From Paludibacteraceae bacterium (GTDB lineage Bacteria > Bacteroidota > Bacteroidia > Bacteroidales > Paludibacteraceae), in the NCBI GenBank assembly GCA_024399955.1, contig JAKSNH010000011.1:1-64000 (forward strand): DNA of 64,000 nucleotides, written 5' to 3'. Numbering within the stretch: position 1 is the stretch's first letter; every line of letters starts with the position of its first letter. Shown here piece by piece: positions 22,151 to 33,573 of this stretch. The translations under genes and the position numbers were made by a program. A model generated the notes under the pieces. It was not told the origin of the DNA. It saw only the letters and a program-made list of their open reading frames with translations, and searched no databases.

Positions 22151-22179
22151 AAAGGACATCCGATGGATGCCCTTTTTTT
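22151..22179 (+). terminator. Terminator after rpsT
   Basis: AAAGGACATCC and GGATGCCCTTT pair with one mismatch around a 3-nt loop and run into seven T. Confidence 0.85.
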
Positions 22180-22206
22180 ATTGTGTATTACCTACCCGAA
22201 ACGTCG

Positions 22207-23301
22207 CTATTTGGCTTTTTTAGCCGCAAAGGTTGTTGGGGTACAACCATGTACCGCTGCAAATGCACGATAGAACGTGCTGCGATAGCGGTATCCCACT
22301 TGCTGACTTATTGAACTAATGTCCATTTTTCCTTCTTCGATTAACGCAGTCGCTTTGCGAATGCGCAATTGGTTGATATAGTCATAGAAATTCAACCCCG
22401 TGGTTTGTTTTAGTTGCAAGGTGAATGCCGTGTGACCAATGCCCATTTGGTGAGCCAACTCATCTCGTGTCAGGTCTGCATGTGCATACAGTTTCTGATC
22501 TTCACATACTTCTTTCAACTTGAGTAGGAATGCATTGTTTGCAATCGCGTTCTCGTCCTCGTTCTCATTCACGTTCTCTTGTTGGGTACTGATAAGGCCA
22601 TCATTATTATTGGCTGCCTCTTGTACCATAATCATACGATAAACATGGATATAAGCAAAATGCCAAACAAAAAATGATAACCCATAGTAGAAAAGGGGCT
22701 CTAATGGATTTTTACTGGTGAAATAAAAGATATAATTAATGATTAGGGAAAAAAGCATAAATAGCATGACATAGAACCAACGCACGGAACGACCTTCCAA
22801 CGATGAATAATAGTCTTTTAGTTCTGCTTCATGACGATGGCCGTAGATGAGAATATAAATAATCATTGCTATTACATAACCTATCAAAAGTATGCCAAAG
22901 AGAAATAAATACCACTTCTCTCCTATGATAACTCCCAAGGTGGATAACACAACAAAAGGTATCACGTTGGCCAAGATACGTGTTTTTGTGATGGGTTGTG
23001 GACGTACTAATAATACCATATTGATAGCACCAATAGGAATAGCCCAAGAATCAAAATAAATAAGAAACATTGACCAATTCCCCTCTACAAAAGAGCGCAT
23101 AACAAAAGCCGTAAAGAACTGTATGGCTAACAACGCTGCTAAAGTGCCACTCCAACGGCGCAAGGGCACTGATGGTTGGCGCTCATACTCCTCGCGAGGA
23201 AAAAGTTCTCGACCAAAAAGAAAAACAACTGCCCAACCTAATTGGGTCATGAAAAGAATACCCGTAAAAAGAGTGAAGATATAATTAAAAGATATATTCA
23301 T
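22207..23301 (-). CDS. Membrane-embedded AraC-family transcriptional regulator
   Basis: Protein of 364 residues. The N-terminal ~210 residues hold about six or seven hydrophobic helices (for example FNYIFTLFTGILFMTQLGWA, WALFxx-type segments, VIPFVVLSTLGVIIG). The last ~100 residues are an AraC DNA-binding domain: LTRDELAHQMGIGHTAFTLQLKQ, then GLNFYDYINQLRIRKATALIEE and the second helix-turn-helix ISSISQQVGYRYRSTFYRAF. Membrane-bound AraC regulators are common in Bacteroidota and probably respond to an envelope signal. It is divergent from the beta-solenoid gene, with a phased repeat array in between that may be its operator. The start ATG lies about 26 nt from the reverse -7 box. Confidence 0.9.
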   Translation of the reverse strand: MNISFNYIFTLFTGILFMTQLGWAVVFLFGRELFPREEYERQPSVPLRRWSGTLAALLAIQFFTAFVMRSFVEGNWSMFLIYFDSWAIPIGAINMVLLVRPQPITKTRILANVIPFVVLSTLGVIIGEKWYLFLFGILLIGYVIAMIIYILIYGHRHEAELKDYYSSLEGRSVRWFYVMLFMLFSLIINYIFYFTSKNPLEPLFYYGLSFFVWHFAYIHVYRMIMVQEAANNNDGLISTQQENVNENEDENAIANNAFLLKLKEVCEDQKLYAHADLTRDELAHQMGIGHTAFTLQLKQTTGLNFYDYINQLRIRKATALIEEGKMDISSISQQVGYRYRSTFYRAFAAVHGCTPTTFAAKKAK

Positions 23302-23326
23302 GTTAATGTTAACGCTAAAAAGGACG

Positions 23327-23359
23327 CAAGAGTATTACTTTTTTTTTAATATATACAAA
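23327..23359 (-). promoter_or_regulatory. Probable promoter of the AraC-type gene
   Basis: Minus strand: TTTG (complement of 23356-23359), 21 bp, TACTCTTG (complement of 23327-23334), one mismatch from TAnnTTTG. Confidence 0.5.
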
Positions 23360-23419
23360 TTTTATGCCAAAAAAAACTGTTAAAAAGTGGTTTTTCGGGC
23401 GTTTAGGGATAGCATAAAC

Positions 23420-23500
23420 GGCGCACATGCTACACAAATGGCGCGGATGCAACAACACAAGTGCCAATTGCGACAACTGCGGCGCGTATGCTACTAAAAC
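23420..23500 (+). repeat. Four phased 20/21-bp repeats, operator-like
   Basis: Units begin at 23420, 23440, 23461 and 23481; the first, second and fourth start GGCGC and share ATGC-AC, the third is more diverged (GTGCCAATTGCGACAAC). The array stops 2 bp before the -33 box of the surface-protein promoter. Spacing is two helical turns, as expected for a multimeric activator site. Confidence 0.6.
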
Positions 23501-23502
23501 TA

Positions 23503-23534
23503 TTTGGTGGATAAAAAAATATTCTATACCTTTG
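23503..23534 (+). promoter_or_regulatory. Promoter of the beta-solenoid gene
   Basis: TTTG 23503-23506, 20 bp, TACCTTTG 23527-23534; leader of about 50 nt. Confidence 0.82.
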
Positions 23535-23591
23535 CACCGCTTTTCAAAAAGGAAGAGCATGAACAGTCTGTTTAAACAAAAAAATTAAAGT

Positions 23592-25772
23592 ATGAGAAAA
23601 GTATGTTTATTATTTGCAGCCCTGACGCTGAGCGCAGGACTATGGGCATTGGACAATGTACGTTACATTGATGCCGATGGTCAAGAAAAAACGGTTCATA
23701 ATGTGACCGAAATCATAAACTCCTCCACTACATTGGACGCTGGTTGGTATGTGGTTAATGGTGCTGATGTACAAGCCGGCACACTCATTTGTAATGGAGA
23801 CATCCGCCTTATCCTTGCCGATGGGGCTAAACTGACTGCCACGGGGAAGGGTGATCCACATTTTACCCCTGGCATCCAAGTATCCGGTGAAACTAACTCC
23901 CTTACTATTTATGCGCAATCTACAGGCGAACAAGTGGGGCAACTAATAGCTAAAGGAGGGAAATGGGCTGCCGGTATTGGTGGTGGGAAAGGCGCTGATG
24001 GCAACAATATCACCATCAATGGCGGTAAAATTACGGCTACCGGTTACACAGCCGCCGGTATCGGTGGAGGTTATGGTGGCAACTGCTCCAACATTACCAT
24101 CAATGGCGGTACTGTGACGGCAACCGGTGGAGGACTTGGTGCCGGCATAGGTGGTGGAGATAGAGGTAATGGCTCTAACATCACCATCAATGGTGGTAAG
24201 GTTACAGCAAACGGAGGAGATTGTGCCTCTGGTATAGGTGGCGGAGATAGAGGTCTTGGTTCGAGCATCTTACTCAATGGTGGTACCATCACAGCAAATG
24301 GTGGAAATAATGCTGTCGCTATAGGAAATGGATACCAGGCTACAAAGGCCGCTTTTAATATCTTTGTATCCACTAAAGGTGTCGTGAAAGCCGGTACGAC
24401 TAAACCTCTTACTGACGACAATATTGTCAATCACACCTCCGCCGACGATATCGCAAACCTCTTGGTTGGTAAGCGATATGCAACAGTAGTTGGTCCGGCT
24501 ATGGTTCCCACTGCGTATATTGACGAGAATGGTGTGTCTCGCAATGTTGCTGCTTATATGGTTGCCGACTCTGCTTCTTCTGTTACTTGGGGCATAAAAG
24601 GTGAAAGCACTTGGTATGTAGTAAATGGTGCTGATGTGCAACTTGCTAAAGGTGCAATATGCCAAGGCGACGTCCGCCTCATCCTTGCCGATGGGGCTAA
24701 ACTCACCGCTATGGGATGGTTGGATGAAAGTATATATATGGGGTATGCCGGTATCCAAGTAGTTGGCGAAGACAACTCACTCACTATCTATGCTCAAGCC
24801 GCTCAATCCGGTCAGCTGATTGCTATCGGTGAATATGCTGCCGCTGGTATTGGTGGTAAATCTTCAGAAGCAGGTTCTAATATTACCATCAATGGTGGTA
24901 TGATTATAGCAACCGGTGGAAGGTTAGGTTCCGGTATTGGTGGAGGAGCGTATGGTTCTAGCTCTCAGAATATCATCATCAATGGTGGTACGGTTACTGC
25001 AATCGGTGGAGATTATGCTGCCGGTATCGCTGGAGGATATGGGTATTATGCTTCTGACGTTTATATCTCTGACGCGTATGTGCTCTACGCAGGCGCAAAC
25101 GAAACGCTGACAGATGATGACATCGTAACTCACTCTTCAGCTCAAGATTTGGGAATGACCTTGGCGGGACAACAATACGTGAAGATGGAGGGCTTAGCTA
25201 CTCCTTATACTCGCAGTATGACCATTGGTCAATGGGCTACCGTTTGCCTGCCCTACGCAGCGACTTATTTTGAAGGCGCTAATTTCTACAAAATCAATTA
25301 CTCCGATGGTGCAGGAAAACTCTATATCGAGGAAGTGGAAACCCTTGAGGCAGGTATGCCATACATCTTTGAAGCAACGGCAGAGACGGTTACTATCGAC
25401 CACGAAGATGCCACGTTAACTAATGGTGAAGAACAAACCGAACGTGGTCTGCACGGCTCATTCGCAAGAAAGGTTATTGAGTCCGATGGCAGCCAAGCCG
25501 CTATCTCCGGTGGGTCGGTTGTTGTCGCTGAGGAATATTCTACCATCACTATTCCCGCGTGTCGCGCGTATATTAATATGGAAGAAGTGCCTACGGTGTA
25601 TCAACCCACGTCCGCTCCTCTCCGTTGCATGGGTGTTCCGCGTGGACAAGCCACAGACAATCCATCATTGCATCATTCCATCAATTCATCATTTAAGATG
25701 ATTAAGGACGGTCAGCTCATCATCGTCAAAGATGGCAAGACCTACAATGTTGTAGGCATGGAAGTAAAATAA
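23592..25772 (+). CDS. Secreted beta-solenoid surface protein with sorting-like tail
   Basis: Exported protein of 726 residues; signal peptide MRKVCLLFAALTLSAGLWA. Two homologous halves (about 20-300 and 305-515) each open with a domain containing WYVVNGADVQ and ICxGDVRLILADGAKLTA, then run into short repeats of the type NITINGGxxTATG-GGxGxGIGGG, a Gly-rich right-handed beta-helix seen in carbohydrate-binding surface proteins. Residues ~540-690 are a beta domain common in secreted Bacteroidales proteins (IGQWATVCLPYAATYFEGANF). The end, KMIKDGQLIIVKDGKTY then NVVGMEVK, is the recurrent tail discussed in findings. Residues near 690-700 are encoded by a CATCATT-type microrepeat. Role unknown; adhesion or glycan binding is inferred. 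Confidence 0.8.
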   Translation: MRKVCLLFAALTLSAGLWALDNVRYIDADGQEKTVHNVTEIINSSTTLDAGWYVVNGADVQAGTLICNGDIRLILADGAKLTATGKGDPHFTPGIQVSGETNSLTIYAQSTGEQVGQLIAKGGKWAAGIGGGKGADGNNITINGGKITATGYTAAGIGGGYGGNCSNITINGGTVTATGGGLGAGIGGGDRGNGSNITINGGKVTANGGDCASGIGGGDRGLGSSILLNGGTITANGGNNAVAIGNGYQATKAAFNIFVSTKGVVKAGTTKPLTDDNIVNHTSADDIANLLVGKRYATVVGPAMVPTAYIDENGVSRNVAAYMVADSASSVTWGIKGESTWYVVNGADVQLAKGAICQGDVRLILADGAKLTAMGWLDESIYMGYAGIQVVGEDNSLTIYAQAAQSGQLIAIGEYAAAGIGGKSSEAGSNITINGGMIIATGGRLGSGIGGGAYGSSSQNIIINGGTVTAIGGDYAAGIAGGYGYYASDVYISDAYVLYAGANETLTDDDIVTHSSAQDLGMTLAGQQYVKMEGLATPYTRSMTIGQWATVCLPYAATYFEGANFYKINYSDGAGKLYIEEVETLEAGMPYIFEATAETVTIDHEDATLTNGEEQTERGLHGSFARKVIESDGSQAAISGGSVVVAEEYSTITIPACRAYINMEEVPTVYQPTSAPLRCMGVPRGQATDNPSLHHSINSSFKMIKDGQLIIVKDGKTYNVVGMEVK

Positions 25773-25795
25773 TTATCAATTATCAATTATCAAAT

Positions 25796-25930
25796 ATGAA
25801 AAAACAATATGTATGTCCTCTATGTGAGGAAATCAAAGTAAGTGCAACATCAGAGATACTTGCTAGTAGTTATACACCTAGTTATAAATATCTAAACATA
25901 ACAACTGGTGCTGATATCTACGCAGACTAA
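25796..25930 (+). CDS. Short peptide, 44 residues, MKK-x-Y-x-x-P type
   Basis: Small reading frame starting ATG at 25796, 23 bp after the beta-solenoid stop, in an AATTATC microrepeat leader. The peptide starts MKKQYVCPLCEEIKVSATSE and continues ILASSYTP, ending GADIYAD. The pattern MKK, Tyr5, Pro8 and a LAxS motif near residue 23 is shared by many unexplained 40-60 residue Bacteroidales peptides. It has a CPLC motif. A strong terminator follows. Function unknown. Confidence 0.5.
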   Translation: MKKQYVCPLCEEIKVSATSEILASSYTPSYKYLNITTGADIYAD

Positions 25931-25947
25931 TTCTGGGACAGCAAGCA

Positions 25948-25992
25948 AAAAACAAGAGAAAAGCGCATTCGGTGCGCTTTTCTTGTTTTTCA
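25948..25992 (+). terminator. Strong rho-independent terminator
   Basis: A long stem (GAAAAGCGCA pairing TGCGCTTTTC, plus ACAA/TTGT beyond a 2-nt bulge) with loop TTCGG, ending in a T run. Ends the beta-solenoid/peptide transcript. Confidence 0.9.
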
Positions 25993-26086
25993 CAGAAAAA
26001 AAATGCAATACTACCATTCTTAGTCCTTGTCCGTTGGCTAAGTTCTAATTTCTAATTGGCTAATTGGTTACTTGGCTACTTGTGCT

Positions 26087-26141
26087 ATATAGACGATTAA
26101 TAGAGGATTAATAGACTATTAATAGACGATTAATAGACTAT
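26087..26141 (+). repeat. 11-bp tandem repeat, about five units
   Basis: Units TAATAGAGGAT, TAATAGACTAT, TAATAGACGAT and TAATAGACTAT at 26098, 26109, 26120 and 26131, with a degenerate unit at 26087. The surrounding gene-free stretch (25993-26345) otherwise holds only simple microrepeats (TCTAATTGGCTAATTGG at 26051-26067, TTCTCCATTCTCATTTTTC after 26299) and no convincing gene. Confidence 0.85.
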
Positions 26142-26345
26142 TCTGCAACCCTGCGAGGACTATCCGTAACCTATGCTGCTACTTTTTGTTCTTCAGATTG
26201 TCTGTTTTCTCATGTCCCTTCTCGACAATGTCCCCATCGCCGTTCCCGTCCCGTCCATTTCCGGCGATACCATCGCCGTCTTACAGTGTCTCTTCTTTGA
26301 GAACGGCATTCTCCATTCTCATTTTTCAATTTTCCATTCAAAAAG

Positions 26346-26377
26346 TTTGCATATTCCAAAAATTCTTTGTAATTTTG
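26346..26377 (+). promoter_or_regulatory. Promoter of the structured RNA
   Basis: TTTG 26346-26349, 20 bp, TAATTTTG 26370-26377. The 34 bases from 26346 are identical to those from 31907. Confidence 0.85.
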
Positions 26378-26383
26378 CACTTG

Positions 26384-26674
26384 AATTCCACGCTGGAGGG
26401 GATTATGTCTCTTTACGGGGTGGGGTTCAGACATAATAAAAGGCGTTTACTGACGCTTGTTCTTGACATCTGGAATCTCGCAAGTTTCATTCACAATCAA
26501 GAATAAGACAAAGGTAGATGTTCATGGGGAATATCCCTTAATTGGTTGTACCATCTTGGTATGCCGATTAGTTCGCATATTCCAGCGTGAGATTCTACGT
26601 TGTCATTCTTTTGTGAAGGTTATGCGAGATACCTCAGATGTGGAATGACAATGGTAAGGATTCCACGCTTTTTT
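26384..26674 (+). ncRNA. Candidate structured RNA or long leader (about 290 nt)
   Basis: A promoter ends at 26377 and a terminator-like hairpin (GTGGAAT 26640-26646 with ATTCCAC 26660-26666, then GC and six T) ends at 26674. In between: a 9-bp perfect stem 26402-26410/26429-26437; a long-range helix ACATCT-GG-ATCTCGCA (26466-26482) with TGCGAGAT-CC-AGATGT (26623-26641), 16 pairs; and a TACCA/TGGTA hairpin near 26550. There is no convincing ORF. It could be a free-standing RNA (6S-like architecture is conceivable) or an attenuated leader of the gene at 26719. I recognise no Rfam family by eye. Confidence 0.5.
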
Positions 26675-26675
26675 G

Positions 26676-26718
26676 TTGTACCCTGCTTGGCGGAATTCAC
26701 GAGCAAAAAAACAACACT
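26676..26718 (+). promoter_or_regulatory. Leader hairpin, cassette copy 1
   Basis: TTGTACC, then GCTTG 26685-26689 pairing CGAGC 26700-26704 around a 10-nt loop GCGGAATTCA, then an A-rich run to the ATG. A near-identical element lies at 30342-30388. Confidence 0.6.
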
Positions 26719-27582
26719 ATGTTAGAAAATCAACCGAATGTTCCAAAGTGGATTGAGATATTGCTCAATTACGAAGACACCCAGGAGAAAGGAAACGAGT
26801 TGCGAACTCTGTTTCAAGAAAATCCATCTCTCACAGATTTTTCTGTAACAAAACAAAAGTTGCAGAAATTATTTCAATTTACGCACAATGGTTCTGCCCA
26901 ACATAGAGTGGACGTTATTGCCCGTGGTATAATTGAAATTAACAACATTGACCAACGTATTGAAAAAGGAGATCAAACAATTGTACAAGATATCTGTCGA
27001 GTTTTTGCGAATTGTTATGGGAGGACGAATTATATAACGCATTCACAGTTGTCCAATGTTTTACAACTATGCGCTCTGCACCAGCCTGATAAGTTTGCAG
27101 AATTTGATAATATTGTTAATCTTTTTCTAAAGCATAACGACAATGTTCTTCCAAAGCACCTTAATTTGCAAATAGTTGGGGATGTAGTGCAAACGATTAA
27201 TGATTTATATTTTAGCATTCGCAAATTTTGCGTTGATGAAACTAATCTTTCGAATCTTGACATTAAGAACCGTTTATATGATATTGCGCTATCAGTTGCT
27301 ATTATTCTTACAGACCCTTGCAATGTTAATAATTTAAGCGCATTAACAATTGATGTTACAAACATTGCTGTGCAATTAGGAGCAGATTATGCATGTTTGC
27401 ATGGAGCTCCAATTCCAAATTGGCTTATATTCTTAATTCAACGGCTGATAAACATTCTTAAACCCGAAATTCAGCATTGTTTACGGCAACATACAGATAA
27501 TTGGCATCAGCAATTAATAACCAAGCGTGCCAAATTGCGTCAACAATACAATATTAACCCTAATAACAATTTACAATTATGA
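26719..27582 (+). CDS. Hypothetical helical cytoplasmic protein, cassette copy 1 first gene
   Basis: Protein of 287 residues with no signal peptide and no membrane helix; mostly predicted helix (for example NELRTLFQENPSL, QRIEKGDQTIVQDICRVFANCYG, PNWLIFLIQRLINILKPEI). I recognise no domain. The ATG at 26719 is chosen because the upstream in-frame Met lies in the terminator-like hairpin. The stop overlaps the next ATG (ATGA). Its last residues, NINPNNNLQ, are encoded by the linker that recurs as non-coding DNA at 30661-30690. AT-rich, unlike core genes. Confidence 0.65.
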   Translation: MLENQPNVPKWIEILLNYEDTQEKGNELRTLFQENPSLTDFSVTKQKLQKLFQFTHNGSAQHRVDVIARGIIEINNIDQRIEKGDQTIVQDICRVFANCYGRTNYITHSQLSNVLQLCALHQPDKFAEFDNIVNLFLKHNDNVLPKHLNLQIVGDVVQTINDLYFSIRKFCVDETNLSNLDIKNRLYDIALSVAIILTDPCNVNNLSALTIDVTNIAVQLGADYACLHGAPIPNWLIFLIQRLINILKPEIQHCLRQHTDNWHQQLITKRAKLRQQYNINPNNNLQL

Positions 27583-27596
27583 AAACAAAACTTTTA
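27551..27596 (+). repeat. Intergenic linker repeat, copy 1
   Basis: 46 bp repeated at 30661-30706 with one mismatch (ATATTAACCC here, ATATTAACTC there). It spans the end of the first gene, AATTTACAATT and the start ATGAAAACAAAACTTTTA of the secreted-protein gene. Confidence 0.9.
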
Positions 27597-30323
27597 ACTT
27601 TATTATGTACACTAATGTGTGCAGGACAATTATTCGCATTCGATTTTAAAGAAGATGGCATCTTCTATAATAAAATAGGCGGTGATAGTGTGGCTGTTAC
27701 ATACGCAATAAGCTATGACTATAATAGTTATTCTGGTTCTGTCACTATTCCTGAGACAGTAACATATTTAGACACTACATATCGAGTCACAACAATTGGA
27801 AATTCTGCTTTCCGTAGTTGCAGCGGTTTGACTTCGGTAACTATCCCCAATTCTGTCACAGAGATTGGACTTGTTGCTTTTTATAATTGCAGCGATTTGA
27901 AAAAAACCAACTATACCGGTACTATTGCAGATTGGTGCAAGATAAATTTTGCAAGTTCTTACGAGGGTTGTTTTTCTAATCCAATGTATTATAGTCATAA
28001 TTTCTATATCAACGATGGGGAAGTAAAAGATTTAGTTATTCCTGAAGGTGTAGAAGCGATTGGAGATCTTGCTTTCTACAAATGCAGCGGTTTGACCTCG
28101 GTAACTATTGGTAATTCAGTCACAACGATTGGAGATGGGGCTTTCGGTGGTTGCACAAATTTGAGAACCGTATATAATAACTCTAACTTAAATATTGTAA
28201 AGGGTTCAACGGATAATGGTTGTGTTGCATATTATGCTTTAAATGTGTATAATGGCATACTTGTAGGAGATTTTATTATAAAACACGATACATTACTGAC
28301 AGCATATTTTGGGGGAGGAGGAGATATAATCATTCCCGATGGCATCAAGCAAATTGGGAATAAGGTCTTCGACGGTCGTTCCGATTTGACCTCTGTAACG
28401 ATTCCCAATTCTGTTACAACGATTGGAGATGATGCTTTCTATAAATGCACTGGTTTGACCTCGGTAACTATTCCCAATTCTGTTACAACGATTGGAGAGT
28501 ATGCTTTTTGTGGATGTATCAACTTGGAAGAAGTAAAGGGTTGCCAAAATGTTGCAGAAATGGGTAGCGGTGTATTTGCAAATACATTATGGTATTTAGA
28601 CCAACCGGATGGTGTGTTATATATAGGAAAGGTTGCATATACGTATAAAGGTGATATGCCCAAGAATACACATATTATCATAAAAGATGGAACGTTGGGA
28701 ATTGCCTCAAGTGCTTTCTATGGTTGCAAAGGTTTGACCTCTGTAACTATTCCTAATTCTGTCACAACGATTGGAGAGAATGCTTTCTGTTGGTGCACCG
28801 ATTTGACATCAGTAACGATTGGCAATTCCGTTACAACGATTGGAGAGAATGCTTTCGCTTATTGCACGGGCTTGACTTCGGTGGAGATTCCTAATTCTGT
28901 CACATCAATTGAGAAGGAGGCTTTCTATGGTTGCAGCGGTTTGACATCAGTGACTATTCCTAATTCTGTTACATCAATTGAGAAGGAGGCTTTTTATAAT
29001 TGCTATGGTTTGATCTCGGTAACTATTGGTAATTCCGTCACAACGATTGGAAATAAGGCTTTCTATGGTTGCAGCGGTTTGAAAAAGACTAACTATATCG
29101 GTACCGTTACAGATTGGTGCAAGATAAGTTTTAATGATTCTACTGCAAACCCAATATTATATAGTCATAATTTTTTCATCAATGATGCAGAGGTGAAAAA
29201 ATTAATTATTCCTGAAGATGTAAAATCAATCGGCAGTTATGCTTTCTATGGTTGCAGCGGTTTGGCATCAGTAACGATTGGCAATTCCGTTACATCGATT
29301 GGATATAATGCTTTTCAGGGTTGTAATGGTTTGACATCAGTGACTATTGGCAATTCCGTTACATCAATTGGAGGTGGTGCTTTCCGTGGTTGCATCGGTT
29401 TGACATCAGTGACTATTCCTAATTCCGTCACATCGATTGGATGGTATGCTTTCTATGATTGCAGTGGGCTAACTTCGGTAACGATTAATTCCAATGCAAT
29501 ATGTAGTAGAAACGATTATGATGGTAGAATAAATTTTAGCTTTGGGAGTCAAGTGCCGGAGTATATCCTAGGAATTTCTGTGACAACGATTGGAACTCAA
29601 GCTTTCGCAGGATGCAGCGGTTTGACCTCGGTAACTATACCATCTTCTGTCACGGCGATTGGGAGTAATGCGTTCAATAATTGTACAAACTTAAAGAAGA
29701 TAGTTTGTGAAATAGAAAAACCATTAGCAATTTCGGACAAAGTTTTCAGTACATATAGTGGCATTTTATATGTCCCTGCCAAAGGTGTTAATCGGTATAA
29801 ATTGGCAGAGGTATGGAAAAATTTCAAAACGATTCTTCTTATTCAGGCAGAGGAGGTGATAGTAACTGAAACACAAGTTAATCCATCTGCTAATATTGTT
29901 TCTATTGCTTGGCGTGCTGTAGAGAATGCATATAATTATATTATCGTCATCAAACAAGGTGAAGATACGATATGCAAATTGACATTTAATGCAGAAGGAC
30001 AATTAGTAACGTCACAGTATTATGCTCCACAAAGAGCACAGTTGTTGACATCAACTACGGATGCAGAACAAACGGCTACCGGCTGGCGTTATGTTATACG
30101 AGATTTGGAGCCTGGCACAGAATATACATATAGTATTGTCGCGTATGATGAAACGGATAATGTTATAGATTCCCAATCCGGCACGTTCCGTACACTATTG
30201 CCCTCAGGACTGGAAAATTTGACTATAGACAGAAAAGTAGGCAACAAATTCATCTATGGCAATCAGTTGTACATCCGCCATAATGGCAACCTCTTCACCG
30301 CCACCGGCGCAAGAGTGAAGTAA
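27579..30323 (+). CDS. BspA-like leucine-rich repeat (LRR_5) surface protein
   Basis: Secreted protein of 914 residues. Signal peptide ends GQLFA. More than fifteen treponemal-type repeats of the form GLTSVTIPNSVTTIGxxAFxGCS fill residues ~60-720, interrupted by two homologous inserts beginning KKTNYxGTxxDWCKI (27897-28065 and 29080-29245) and by regions without repeats. Residues ~740-880 look like a fibronectin-type domain (VNPSANIVSIAWRAVENAYNY, ATGWRYVIRDLEPGTEYTYSI). The tail GNKFIYGNQLYIRHNGNLF then TATGARVK matches the recurrent C-terminal tail. BspA proteins act in adhesion; ligand unknown here. High DNA-level repetition makes repeat-number change likely. Confidence 0.92.
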   Translation: MKTKLLTLLCTLMCAGQLFAFDFKEDGIFYNKIGGDSVAVTYAISYDYNSYSGSVTIPETVTYLDTTYRVTTIGNSAFRSCSGLTSVTIPNSVTEIGLVAFYNCSDLKKTNYTGTIADWCKINFASSYEGCFSNPMYYSHNFYINDGEVKDLVIPEGVEAIGDLAFYKCSGLTSVTIGNSVTTIGDGAFGGCTNLRTVYNNSNLNIVKGSTDNGCVAYYALNVYNGILVGDFIIKHDTLLTAYFGGGGDIIIPDGIKQIGNKVFDGRSDLTSVTIPNSVTTIGDDAFYKCTGLTSVTIPNSVTTIGEYAFCGCINLEEVKGCQNVAEMGSGVFANTLWYLDQPDGVLYIGKVAYTYKGDMPKNTHIIIKDGTLGIASSAFYGCKGLTSVTIPNSVTTIGENAFCWCTDLTSVTIGNSVTTIGENAFAYCTGLTSVEIPNSVTSIEKEAFYGCSGLTSVTIPNSVTSIEKEAFYNCYGLISVTIGNSVTTIGNKAFYGCSGLKKTNYIGTVTDWCKISFNDSTANPILYSHNFFINDAEVKKLIIPEDVKSIGSYAFYGCSGLASVTIGNSVTSIGYNAFQGCNGLTSVTIGNSVTSIGGGAFRGCIGLTSVTIPNSVTSIGWYAFYDCSGLTSVTINSNAICSRNDYDGRINFSFGSQVPEYILGISVTTIGTQAFAGCSGLTSVTIPSSVTAIGSNAFNNCTNLKKIVCEIEKPLAISDKVFSTYSGILYVPAKGVNRYKLAEVWKNFKTILLIQAEEVIVTETQVNPSANIVSIAWRAVENAYNYIIVIKQGEDTICKLTFNAEGQLVTSQYYAPQRAQLLTSTTDAEQTATGWRYVIRDLEPGTEYTYSIVAYDETDNVIDSQSGTFRTLLPSGLENLTIDRKVGNKFIYGNQLYIRHNGNLFTATGARVK

Positions 30324-30341
30324 CTCCAAAGTTTACTATTA

Positions 30342-30388
30342 TTGTACCACGCTTGGCAGAATTTACAAGCAAAAAATAATATCACGTT
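30342..30388 (+). promoter_or_regulatory. Leader hairpin, cassette copy 2
   Basis: TTGTACC, then GCTTG 30351-30355 pairing CAAGC 30366-30370 around GCAGAATTTA. Compared with copy 1 the stem differs by a U-G to U-A change, which keeps the pair. Confidence 0.6.
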
Positions 30389-30652
30389 ATGGAAAACTGT
30401 ATTTTTGAAAAATTTTGTAAGGGTGTTGTTCTTTGTTCTACACATGATGTTGTATTTCATTCACAAACAAACGTTCAATCTGTAGAAAAAGTTATTGTTA
30501 TTACCCGAAATCCACCAGCCTGTCATAACATTTCCTTGCTTATCTTGGAAAAAGAATTATGTGGTCAGAAAGATCAACTAATCTCTATGTTAAAAGAAAG
30601 TTATGGGGATAACTTATTGTGTATTCTCGATTTAAACGGGAATAAATTATAA
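30389..30652 (+). CDS. Hypothetical small protein, cassette copy 2 first gene
   Basis: Protein of 87 residues without a signal peptide; Cys-rich for its size (five Cys). No family recognised and no clear similarity to the first gene of copy 1 apart from position and leader. It ends LCILDLNGNKL. The 36-bp gap to the next gene is the repeated linker. Confidence that it is translated rests on the conserved leader hairpin and the tight position. Confidence 0.5.
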   Translation: MENCIFEKFCKGVVLCSTHDVVFHSQTNVQSVEKVIVITRNPPACHNISLLILEKELCGQKDQLISMLKESYGDNLLCILDLNGNKL

Positions 30653-30660
30653 TAATAGAA

Positions 30661-30706
30661 ATATTAACTCTAATAACAATTTACAATTATGAAAACAAAA
30701 CTTTTA
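30661..30706 (+). repeat. Intergenic linker repeat, copy 2
   Basis: 45 of 46 bases match 27551-27596. Here the upstream part is non-coding, whereas in copy 1 it encodes the C-terminus of the first gene. Confidence 0.9.
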
Positions 30707-31417
30707 TTTTTATTACCAATGCTTGTAGTGTTTTTTGCTGCATGTGAGAAGGATTCCAAAAATGAACCAAATCAAAAAAATGGTACGGAGAATGGTCACG
30801 AATGGGTAGATCTTGGTCTGCCAAGTGGTTTAAAATGGGCGACCTGTAACGTAGGTGCTACTAACCCCGAAGGATATGGAGATTACTTCGCTTGGGGTGA
30901 AACAAGTCCTAAAACGACATACAATCTTAGCACCTACAAATTTATACGGAGTGGCAGCAGCAGTTGGGCATCTATCACCAAATATACCATCCCCGATGGT
31001 CAAAAGAGCGGTATTTGGTACAATGGAGACACTTTTATTGGCGACAATAAGACCACTCTTGACCTCGCTGACGATGCTGCTCATGTTAATTGGGGAGGTA
31101 GTTGGCGTATGCCGACCAAGGCTGAGCAAGATGAATTGCGAGATAATTGCACCTTGACAGAGACGACTAAAAATGGAGTTAATGGTTATCTTATTAAGAG
31201 CAAGAAGAATAATAACTCCATCTTTTTGCCCGCTTCCGGCTGCCGCCACAATTCGTCGCTCAGCAATGTCGGTTACTACGGCGGCTACTGGTCTTCTTCG
31301 CTCCGCTCGGGCTACTCGAGCGGCGCGTACATCCTCGTCCATGGTGGTGGCCCCGCGGATTGGCTCGGCAACTACAATCGCATCTACGGGCAGTCCGTTC
31401 GACCGGTCTGCCAGTAG
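30689..31417 (+). CDS. Lipoprotein with C-type-lectin-like domain, DGR-variable-protein style
   Basis: Lipoprotein of 242 residues: signal MKTKLLFLLPMLVVFFAAC with lipidated Cys19, followed by EKDSKNE, favouring surface exposure. The mature part is the Fibrobacter-major-paralogue/FGE-type fold: HEWVDLGLPSGLKWATCNVG, GDYFAWGE, WGGSWRMPTKAEQDEL, FLPASGCR, GYYGGYWSSS and the final SVRPVCQ. This fold carries the variable region in many Bacteroidota diversity-generating retroelement targets. From about 31229 to the stop the DNA turns GC-rich and codons are almost all NNC/NNT/NNG, as in variable regions. No reverse transcriptase or template repeat lies in the window. Ligand unknown. Confidence 0.8.
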   Translation: MKTKLLFLLPMLVVFFAACEKDSKNEPNQKNGTENGHEWVDLGLPSGLKWATCNVGATNPEGYGDYFAWGETSPKTTYNLSTYKFIRSGSSSWASITKYTIPDGQKSGIWYNGDTFIGDNKTTLDLADDAAHVNWGGSWRMPTKAEQDELRDNCTLTETTKNGVNGYLIKSKKNNNSIFLPASGCRHNSSLSNVGYYGGYWSSSLRSGYSSGAYILVHGGGPADWLGNYNRIYGQSVRPVCQ

Positions 31418-31451
31418 CCAAGACTTTCAAACTTTCTTCTTATTAATCTCT

Positions 31452-31486
31452 TGCGAGGCAGAAAACAATTTGTTCTCTGCCTCGCA
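31452..31486 (+). repeat. Perfect-loop hairpin downstream of the variable-type gene
   Basis: TGCGAGGCAGA pairs TCTGCCTCGCA, extended by ACAA-type pairs beyond one mismatch: about 15 pairs with a 3-nt loop. No T run follows, so it is not a classical terminator, although it may serve as one. Confidence 0.7.
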
Positions 31487-31518
31487 TCCTCCGTGCATAT
31501 GCAAACACCCTGCATCTC

Positions 31519-31692
31519 AAAATGTACGATTATTAACTTATTATCATTCAACTTTTGGTGCAAGTAGGTGCAGGTGGTGCAGGTACATTCTAATACACAC
31601 CCACGCGCGTATATGTATATACAAAACAACCTGCACCACTTGCACCTACTTGCACCCGTTGCGCATAGACGTAAAAATCAAAAAGTAAGCAC
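31519..31692 (+). repeat. Left direct repeat, split by an inverted-repeat insert
   Basis: AAAATGTACGATTATTAA (31519-31536) and AAAAATCAAAAAGTAAGCAC (31673-31692) both recur at 33420-33469, where only 12 bp separate them. Here 136 bp, containing a large inverted repeat, lie between them. Confidence 0.75.
31557..31656. repeat. 28-bp inverted repeat with 44-bp spacer
   Basis: Arms 31557-31584 and 31629-31656 match at 27 of 28 positions. Each arm is itself an iterated GGTGCA(A/G)GT word (three copies). The spacer holds CGCGCGTATATGTATATAC. Confidence 0.9.
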
Positions 31693-31694
31693 AA

Positions 31695-31852
31695 CGCGTC
31701 TAAAGTAGGCGACCACTTCGGGACCACATGCAGCTAAGGTAAGCCCCGCCTACCCCCCGCCTAAACCTGCCAAAACCCTTGCTTTTCGGGGGGGTAGGCG
31801 GGGCTTAGTAGGTCTTTATATGCTACGGAGATGCTACGGAACTTTAGACGCG
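31695..31852. repeat. Nested inverted repeat (12-bp outer, 19-bp inner arms)
   Basis: Outer arms CGCGTCTAAAGT (31695-31706) and ACTTTAGACGCG (31841-31852) are perfect; inner arms 31740-31758 (TAAGCCCCGCCTACCCCCC) and 31789-31807 are perfect. Spacer between inner arms is 30 bp. Very GC-rich inner part in an AT-rich setting. No coding sequence. Confidence 0.9.
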
Positions 31853-31906
31853 CCCTAGTCTGCGTTTGCATCAAAAAGTGCATTTTGGGCTATTTTTTCA
31901 CTTTTT

Positions 31907-31938
31907 TTTGCATATTCCAAAAATTCTTTGTAATTTTG
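31907..31938 (+). promoter_or_regulatory. Promoter of the ATPase gene
   Basis: TTTG 31907-31910, 20 bp, TAATTTTG 31931-31938; identical to the promoter at 26346 over 34 bases. Confidence 0.85.
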
Positions 31939-31976
31939 CAGTCTGAAATGTTGGAAAAACGGACATTTTGATTTAT

Positions 31977-33329
31977 ATGATAGTTAGAAAAACGGACAGA
32001 ATCATTGATGAGCATTATCAAAAAACAGGCAGAGCCCTACTGCTCACAGGTGCTCGTCAAGTCGGGAAAACATTCTCTGTAAGGCGATTAGCAGAGCGTA
32101 AGGGATGGCAATTAGTGGAGATGAATTTCCTTTTGCAACCTGAAACAATCGATATTGTTCGAGGAGCAAAAGATATTCAAGACTTACTTTTGCGTATTTC
32201 TGCATATGCAAAGCGTCCATTGGAAAAAGGGAAGACACTTCTTTTTTTTGATGAGGTAGAAGAATATCCGGATGTAATCACATGGGTGAAGGCTATCGTA
32301 GAAAATGGCTCTTATCCTTTAATTCTGAGCGGCTCATTATTGGGTGTGGAATTGAAGAACATTCGATCTGTCCCCGTGGGATATATGGATGAACTTCAGA
32401 TGTACCCATGTGACTTTGAGGAATTTATTCAAGCGGTTGGTGTTCAAAAGAACATCATTGACCATTTGCGTGAATCGTGGGATAAAGAAGAGAAGGTGGA
32501 TGACTATATTCATCAAAAGATGATGTCTTTAATCAATCTATATTTATTGGTAGGTGGTATGCCGGCGGTTGTGCAAACCTATTTGGATACCAATGACATG
32601 CAGCGCGTTATAGAGGTTCAAAAAAGCATATTGTCTCAATATAAAATGGATATTGCCCGATATGATACTAACGAGAAGTTGTATATCAACGACATCTTTG
32701 ATTTGATTCCGCCGGAATTGAATGCTAAGAATAAACGTTTTATACTTAAGAACCTTAATGAGCATTTCAAGTTCAGCCGTCATGAGAATAGTTTTACATG
32801 GTTAAAGGATGCAGATATGGCTTTGCCTACATTTAATGCTAACGAGCCCCGTGTGCCGCTATTACTTAGTCGTTGCAGTAATTTATTCAAGTTATTTCAA
32901 AATGATGTTGGTTTGTTAGCCTCTCAATATGCGGATGGCATACAACTGCGTATTCTACAAGGAGAAACTGCTATCAATTTTGGGGCTATATATGAAAACT
33001 TGGTGGCTCAAGAACTACATGCTCATGGGTGGAGTCTGTACTATTTCTCTAGTAAAACGCAAGGCGAAATAGATTTTCTTTTAGAGCAAGATGCACAGGT
33101 TATTCCATTAGAGGTCAAGTCGGGAAAGAATTATACCCGCCATGTGGCTTTGGACAACCTGCTGAGAAATAAGGATTATAACATTTCGAAAGCCATTGTG
33201 TTGTGTAATGACAATATAAAAGTGGTGAATAAGGTGATTTATGCGCCAATTTATATGCTGATGTTTATCCAAAGGCAGCCACAAGCGGCATCTCTTGTTT
33301 ATTCTCCCGATTTGACAGGGCTACTATAG
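31977..33329 (+). CDS. AAA-type ATPase with DUF4143 nuclease-like C-terminus
   Basis: Cytoplasmic protein of 450 residues. Walker A is GARQVGKT (residues 25-32), Walker B LLFFDE (88-93), and a sensor-like SGSLLG follows near 118. The C-terminal DUF4143 part has GAIYENLVAQEL, GEIDFLLEQ and PLEVKSGK, the D/ExK spacing of PD-(D/E)xK nucleases. Such ATPases occur in many copies in Bacteroidales; their function is unknown. The ATG at 31977 is preferred over the TTG at 31968. It stands alone between direct repeats and carries its own promoter. Downstream 33330-33573 has no gene. Confidence 0.9.
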   Translation: MIVRKTDRIIDEHYQKTGRALLLTGARQVGKTFSVRRLAERKGWQLVEMNFLLQPETIDIVRGAKDIQDLLLRISAYAKRPLEKGKTLLFFDEVEEYPDVITWVKAIVENGSYPLILSGSLLGVELKNIRSVPVGYMDELQMYPCDFEEFIQAVGVQKNIIDHLRESWDKEEKVDDYIHQKMMSLINLYLLVGGMPAVVQTYLDTNDMQRVIEVQKSILSQYKMDIARYDTNEKLYINDIFDLIPPELNAKNKRFILKNLNEHFKFSRHENSFTWLKDADMALPTFNANEPRVPLLLSRCSNLFKLFQNDVGLLASQYADGIQLRILQGETAINFGAIYENLVAQELHAHGWSLYYFSSKTQGEIDFLLEQDAQVIPLEVKSGKNYTRHVALDNLLRNKDYNISKAIVLCNDNIKVVNKVIYAPIYMLMFIQRQPQAASLVYSPDLTGLL

Positions 33330-33419
33330 GGATTCAATCATTGAGCATGTACCTCTCCTTCTCGGCAATCAATCTTTACAAACCTGTTGTCTCATCCTTC
33401 TCTGATTCTCCTCTGATAT

Positions 33420-33469
33420 AAAATGTACGATTATTAAGAAGATTCTGTCAAAAATCAAAAAATAAGCAC
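33420..33469 (+). repeat. Right direct repeat flanking the ATPase gene
   Basis: AAAATGTACGATTATTAA, 12 bp, AAAAATCAAAAAATAAGCAC; 37 of 38 repeat bases equal the left copy at 31519-31692. Confidence 0.85.
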
Positions 33470-33573
33470 CTCTTCGAGGGCTGCAAGCTGCCGAAAAGAG
33501 AAACAATTAACGTTGACTAAAAATGGCAACTTGATGAAGAATCTATCTTTTTTTGTATTTTTTTGCAGAAAAA

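Follow-up and report, generated by a model that had tools for sequence, protein, structure and literature searches.

The gene at positions 30689-31417 (forward strand) of the window analysed here, a stretch of 64,000 nucleotides from a Paludibacteraceae bacterium, is, judged from its sequence, a real target of a diversity-generating retroelement (DGR). Our preferred reading, to which we give a probability of about 0.78, is that it encodes a DGR variable protein (VP) whose reverse transcriptase (RT) and template repeat (TR) are no longer in the genome, leaving the gene orphaned and now fixed. Adenine-mutagenic reverse transcription of a TR carrying AAC/AAT codons would, in the past, have yielded a mutagenised copy which replaced the 3' end of the gene and thereby introduced NNY codons into a lipoprotein's C-type-lectin domain. 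Either the element would then have been lost, or the gene would have been left or dispersed without it, and its later evolution would have been that of any fixed surface protein.

The variable protein and its fold

The ORF, together with its paralogues and relatives, defines a VP of 242 amino acids. It is a predicted lipoprotein: a putative signal peptide (30689-30742; read from the sequence as MKTKLLFLLPMLVVFFAAC before EKDSK) with the lipobox FFAAC leads to a predicted acylated Cys (Cys19, 30743-30745). The protein is presumably exposed at the cell surface, and its domain may bind a ligand.

The sequence-only reading had pointed to the last approximately 62 codons as GC-rich and nearly free of A-ending codons, and this was confirmed. 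The GC content is 41.1% before position 31229 compared with 63.5% in 31229-31417, and A-ending codons make up 40/180 and 1/62, respectively. Outside this gene, none of the 14,315 windows of 62 codons taken from the main ORFs of the 64 kb is equally GC-rich and none is equally poor in A-ending codons. The peptide GYYGGYWSSS ... SVRPV is present in the encoded C-terminal part. The coordinates originally given (31229-31417) are right, though the variable region (VR) begins slightly earlier: alignment to TR/VR pairs of relatives fits better with 31223-31417 (forward strand). The VR contains about 20 NNY codons where the TRs of relatives have AAY. It is C-terminal and ends at the stop codon.

Residues 37-242 (30797-31414, forward strand) likely form a domain of the C-type-lectin fold. 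An AlphaFold2 model derived from 119 relatives reached a pLDDT of 91.5 and, in VIA-align, all five chains with a Z of at least 2 are C-type-lectin folds. The best structural match, the C-terminal domain of Legionella Lcl (8q4e; Z 7.3, 103 aligned residues, 2.9 Å), has this fold but is only 18% identical to the window domain over the aligned part; the corresponding Pfam profile, Lcl_C (PF07603), gives a weak match below threshold (20.9 bits; curated cut-off, 34.9). A single Z below 8 is modest and the assignment leans on the agreement among the five chains, together with the Lcl_C match and published VP structures of this fold (for example, PMC5006420). Plain Foldseek with the same model gave nothing significant, no fold was matched by a first model (22 sequences, pLDDT 73.6) and a sequence search of solved structures returned nothing credible.

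Relatives with complete DGRs that target the same domain

Complete DGRs occur in the same genus, with RTs (motif IGxxxSQ) adjoining repeat pairs whose mismatches fall at the adenines of one copy. One genome, G024, carries an RT, a TR (peptide LPAAGYRNDSSLNNAGSNGNYWSSSLN...NNNNRYYGFSVRPVCQ) and a VR, and the target is the same domain as that of the window gene. In this TR/VR pair, 24/50 TR adenines are altered compared with 1/130 other bases, and two further G024 VPs match the same TR (20/50 adenines against 3-4/130 other bases). DGRs on JAGBHI010000063 (L193) and JAFZRE010000023 (L220) lie beside VPs 54-55% identical to the window VP; within the VR codons these pairs show 28-29 A changes and 0 non-A changes. 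Remote VPs on two other JAGBHI contigs have been diversified from the L193 TR (28/56 adenines compared with 1/127 and 4/127 other bases).

The templates of these Bacteroidales DGRs (GYRN..NYWSSS..NNNNR..SVR[PA]V; G024:C28, JAGBHI010000063 and JAFZRE010000023) specify the domain found in the window gene, with equal spacing of the variable codons and an equal C-terminal end. They differ from the window in that RT and TR adjoin the target, whereas the window lacks both. Eleven viral contigs also carry complete DGRs whose targets are related to the lectin-like domain (L267, L269, L271, L272, L274, L277, L281, L286, L289, L295 and L298), with 86-100% of mismatches at template adenines. The named relatives are mostly from gut Bacteroidales metagenome-assembled genomes (MAGs) of herbivores.

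A second type of DGR is also present in the genus (L065, L070, L072, L074 and L077, in G061, G062, G109, G057 and G099). It has a different template (for example, GSNRVNRGGSWNNN, which resembles formylglycine-generating-enzyme-like targets).

Adenine-directed signature of the variable region

We compared the window VR with the three foreign TRs (L220, L193 and G024), which themselves also diverge from it at some 26-32% of non-A positions. In the three comparisons, differences occur at 36/55 TR adenines against 33/128 other bases (p = 5e-7), 36/56 against 38/127 (p = 1e-5) and 34/50 against 40/130 (p = 6e-6). Shuffling within codon position gave 21.5-22.5 expected adenine-site differences where 36 are observed (p ≤ 5e-5). 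Where the TRs have AAY, the window codons are NNY in 20/20, 20/21 and 17/17 cases, and the same third base is kept in 17, 17 and 14 of these, respectively. Compared with the closest orphan VRs, those of G115, the window VR differs at 26-32 of 49 TR-A sites (those where two independent TRs both have A), compared with no more than 12-13 of 121 non-A sites. Adenine bias at p < 1e-3 was found in 99 of the 150 VR-like segments of the loci fetched.

These data bear directly on the suggestion that no DGR was ever involved and that the genes are ordinary C-type-lectin paralogues under positive selection at their binding-site residues. The fold is common and some members of the family (for example, G000:C20 and L200) carry no adenine bias; both points are in its favour. 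Selection on residues, however, would not hold the third base at C or T alongside randomised positions 1 and 2. Among 23 VRs, the variable columns differ at 66, 61 and 32% for codon positions 1, 2 and 3, while the corresponding values for variable framework columns in these genes are 66, 49 and 67%. Since third positions are held in the VR and variable framework sites behave otherwise, ordinary selection on residues does not fit the codon pattern. The enrichment at adenine sites defined by independent TRs already contradicts such an origin, which we regard as hardly credible. The proposal of a DGR target whose end resembles a C-type lectin is thus supported both by the adenine statistics against the TRs of relatives and by the structure comparison.

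Search for the reverse transcriptase and template repeat

The window contains no RT and no TR, as had been noted from its sequence, and no second copy of the VR. The retroelement had been supposed to lie elsewhere in the genome, with an RT close to a TR matching the VR except at A positions. Neither was found in the assembly (G000; 2.02 Mb, 23 contigs, 98.2% complete), and a location elsewhere in the genome is not supported. Searches of this genome with the Pfam RVT_1 profile and with a DGR-RT profile built from 16 sequences gave no match; the latter result is informative because the same profile detects RTs in 17 genomes of a 178-genome set from the genus. Nor did it find a DGR RT in the sister genome G050 (100% complete). 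A TR would be expected to match the window VR at roughly 80% identity, and BLASTN with the VR against the window, its own genome and the genus set recovered only other VRs and no TR. The exact template lineage of the window VR was found nowhere among the sequences searched.

One candidate TR, at C12:107537 of G000 (L124 3530-3700), was rejected. It lacks AAY at the variable codons, and an in-frame stop in place of the conserved Trp, together with an internal deletion, marks it as a VR pseudogene; it has its 3' flank in common with the window gene. An RT on a phage or plasmid carrying the window template was also considered and rejected. Phage and plasmid records gave only weak partial relatives. 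When two TR-like patterns were searched against viral contigs, one produced a match, which belonged to another template lineage, and the second none; the pattern for the window VR lineage was without a match.

The assembly comprises 23 contigs, and its missing 2% might contain a DGR. More generally, a DGR might still be active on the gene if its RT and TR were unassembled, present in other strains, or mobile and acting in trans. The remote VPs in JAGBHI and G024 indicate that DGRs act at several loci, those of this domain family also reside on viral contigs, and the window VR has a clean signature, with its single A-ending codon. The absence of an RT from both G000 and G050, the lack of a match to the window-lineage pattern in viral contigs and the state of the paralogues, described below, all speak against current activity, and we consider it unlikely.

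Paralogues and the probable frozen state

Paralogues of the window gene are found in its own genome on contigs C23, C17, C1 and C20, with more distant members on C18 and C4. Two of the paralogues have orthologues in G050. Between C17 of G000 and C88 of G050, no amino acid change occurs in 62 VR codons and there is one synonymous change; between C1 and C79, there is one amino acid change in 64, at the otherwise invariant RPV. No adenine-directed change has occurred at C17 or C1 since the two species separated. The C17 VR carries the DGR signature; that of C1, in which many codons end in T, appears to be older. The VP in the window is without an orthologue in G050 and the freezing of its own copy is inferred from the behaviour of C17 and C1. 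The gene had been described as an active or past target: the unchanged variable codons of the orthologous paralogues favour the past, not the active, alternative.

Divergence within the genome is consistent with this. The VRs of the window (C3) and C17 differ at 31/49 variable sites and at 18/121 non-A sites, compared with 2-4/121 non-A differences among the G024 VRs that match their TR. For the window VR and C17, the last homing from a shared template is thus not recent, which also argues against a DGR still acting on the gene.

Another explanation is that diversity is now spread among paralogous VR domains by gene conversion or duplication and not by reverse transcription. In its favour are the existence of several paralogues and of a truncated copy, the long proteins with internal or tandem VR domains, and flanks rich in repeats. 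Conversion, however, would move the variable codons in blocks, whereas the window gene and C17 differ at most variable sites yet share the invariant ones. We judge this explanation to be highly improbable and retain the reading of an orphaned, fixed VP.

Orphan targets and their significance

The orphan-target state is already known: isolates of Treponema denticola without RT and TR keep adenine-directed target genes, likely as leftovers of DGR loss (PMC4891356), and the window gene is a further instance. As here, these targets (mostly lipoproteins) have adenine-directed VRs with neither RT nor TR. They belong to another phylum, however, and for the window gene, unlike the T. denticola orphans, the template lineage was not found and the adenine bias was measured against the TRs of relatives. 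Cyanobacterial DGRs with remote variable proteins (PMC7517822) likewise have paralogous targets dispersed at a distance from the RT, but those genomes retain RT and TR, which the window genome does not.

Within the genus, 17 of the genomes sampled have at least four matches to the family (some of the counted matches are split, and some members lack the signature). In 12 of these 17 no DGR RT was detected; seven of the 12 are at least 94% complete, although mobile or repetitive DNA may be missing from MAGs at a higher rate than their completeness values imply. DGR surveys begin from the RT, so targets that outlive their element go uncounted. The 12 genomes make it testable whether selection fixes and keeps DGR-made variants once the machinery has been lost. 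DGR-made binding domains might even be routinely kept and reused in this genus after loss of the retroelement, a generalisation that we put forward tentatively and think doubtful. If it is true, frozen repertoires of lectin-like binders, some fused within long multidomain proteins, would represent a lasting outcome of DGRs and not decaying debris.

DGR VRs have been described as almost exclusively close to the 3' end of the gene. Among the 99 signature-bearing VRs, 17 are separated from the stop by more than 40 residues. VRs with a DGR signature are found inside long proteins at L130 (G115:C36), L133 (G115:C8), L125 (C17 of the window genome), L190, L178 and L184. In such proteins 359 to over 1600 amino acids may come after the VR, and some have several lectin-like VR domains.

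Genomic context

By BLASTN synteny, the gene lies in a lineage-specific segment of 11.4 kb (22179-33556), replaced by about 0.5 kb in G050; the flanks are 93% and 87% identical to those of G050. No integrase was seen in the segment. Besides the VP it includes a regulator with an AraC-like C-terminus (identified by eye), a beta-helix protein, a BspA-type LRR protein (914 amino acids) and an AAA_14/DUF4143 ATPase.

A hairpin (GCGAGGCAGA..TCTGCCTCGC; 31452-31486, forward strand; folding z -5.9) lies 3' of the stop codon. It was considered as a DGR homing signal and rejected as part of a terminator-like repeat dispersed throughout the genome. The 3' intergenic region of the gene has 57 dispersed matches in its own genome, many of which cover the hairpin, and the hairpin is probably not DGR-specific. 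The intergenic regions 31415-31900 and 33400-33500 are mosaics of dispersed repeats with hairpins, and G050 also has many matches to this DNA.
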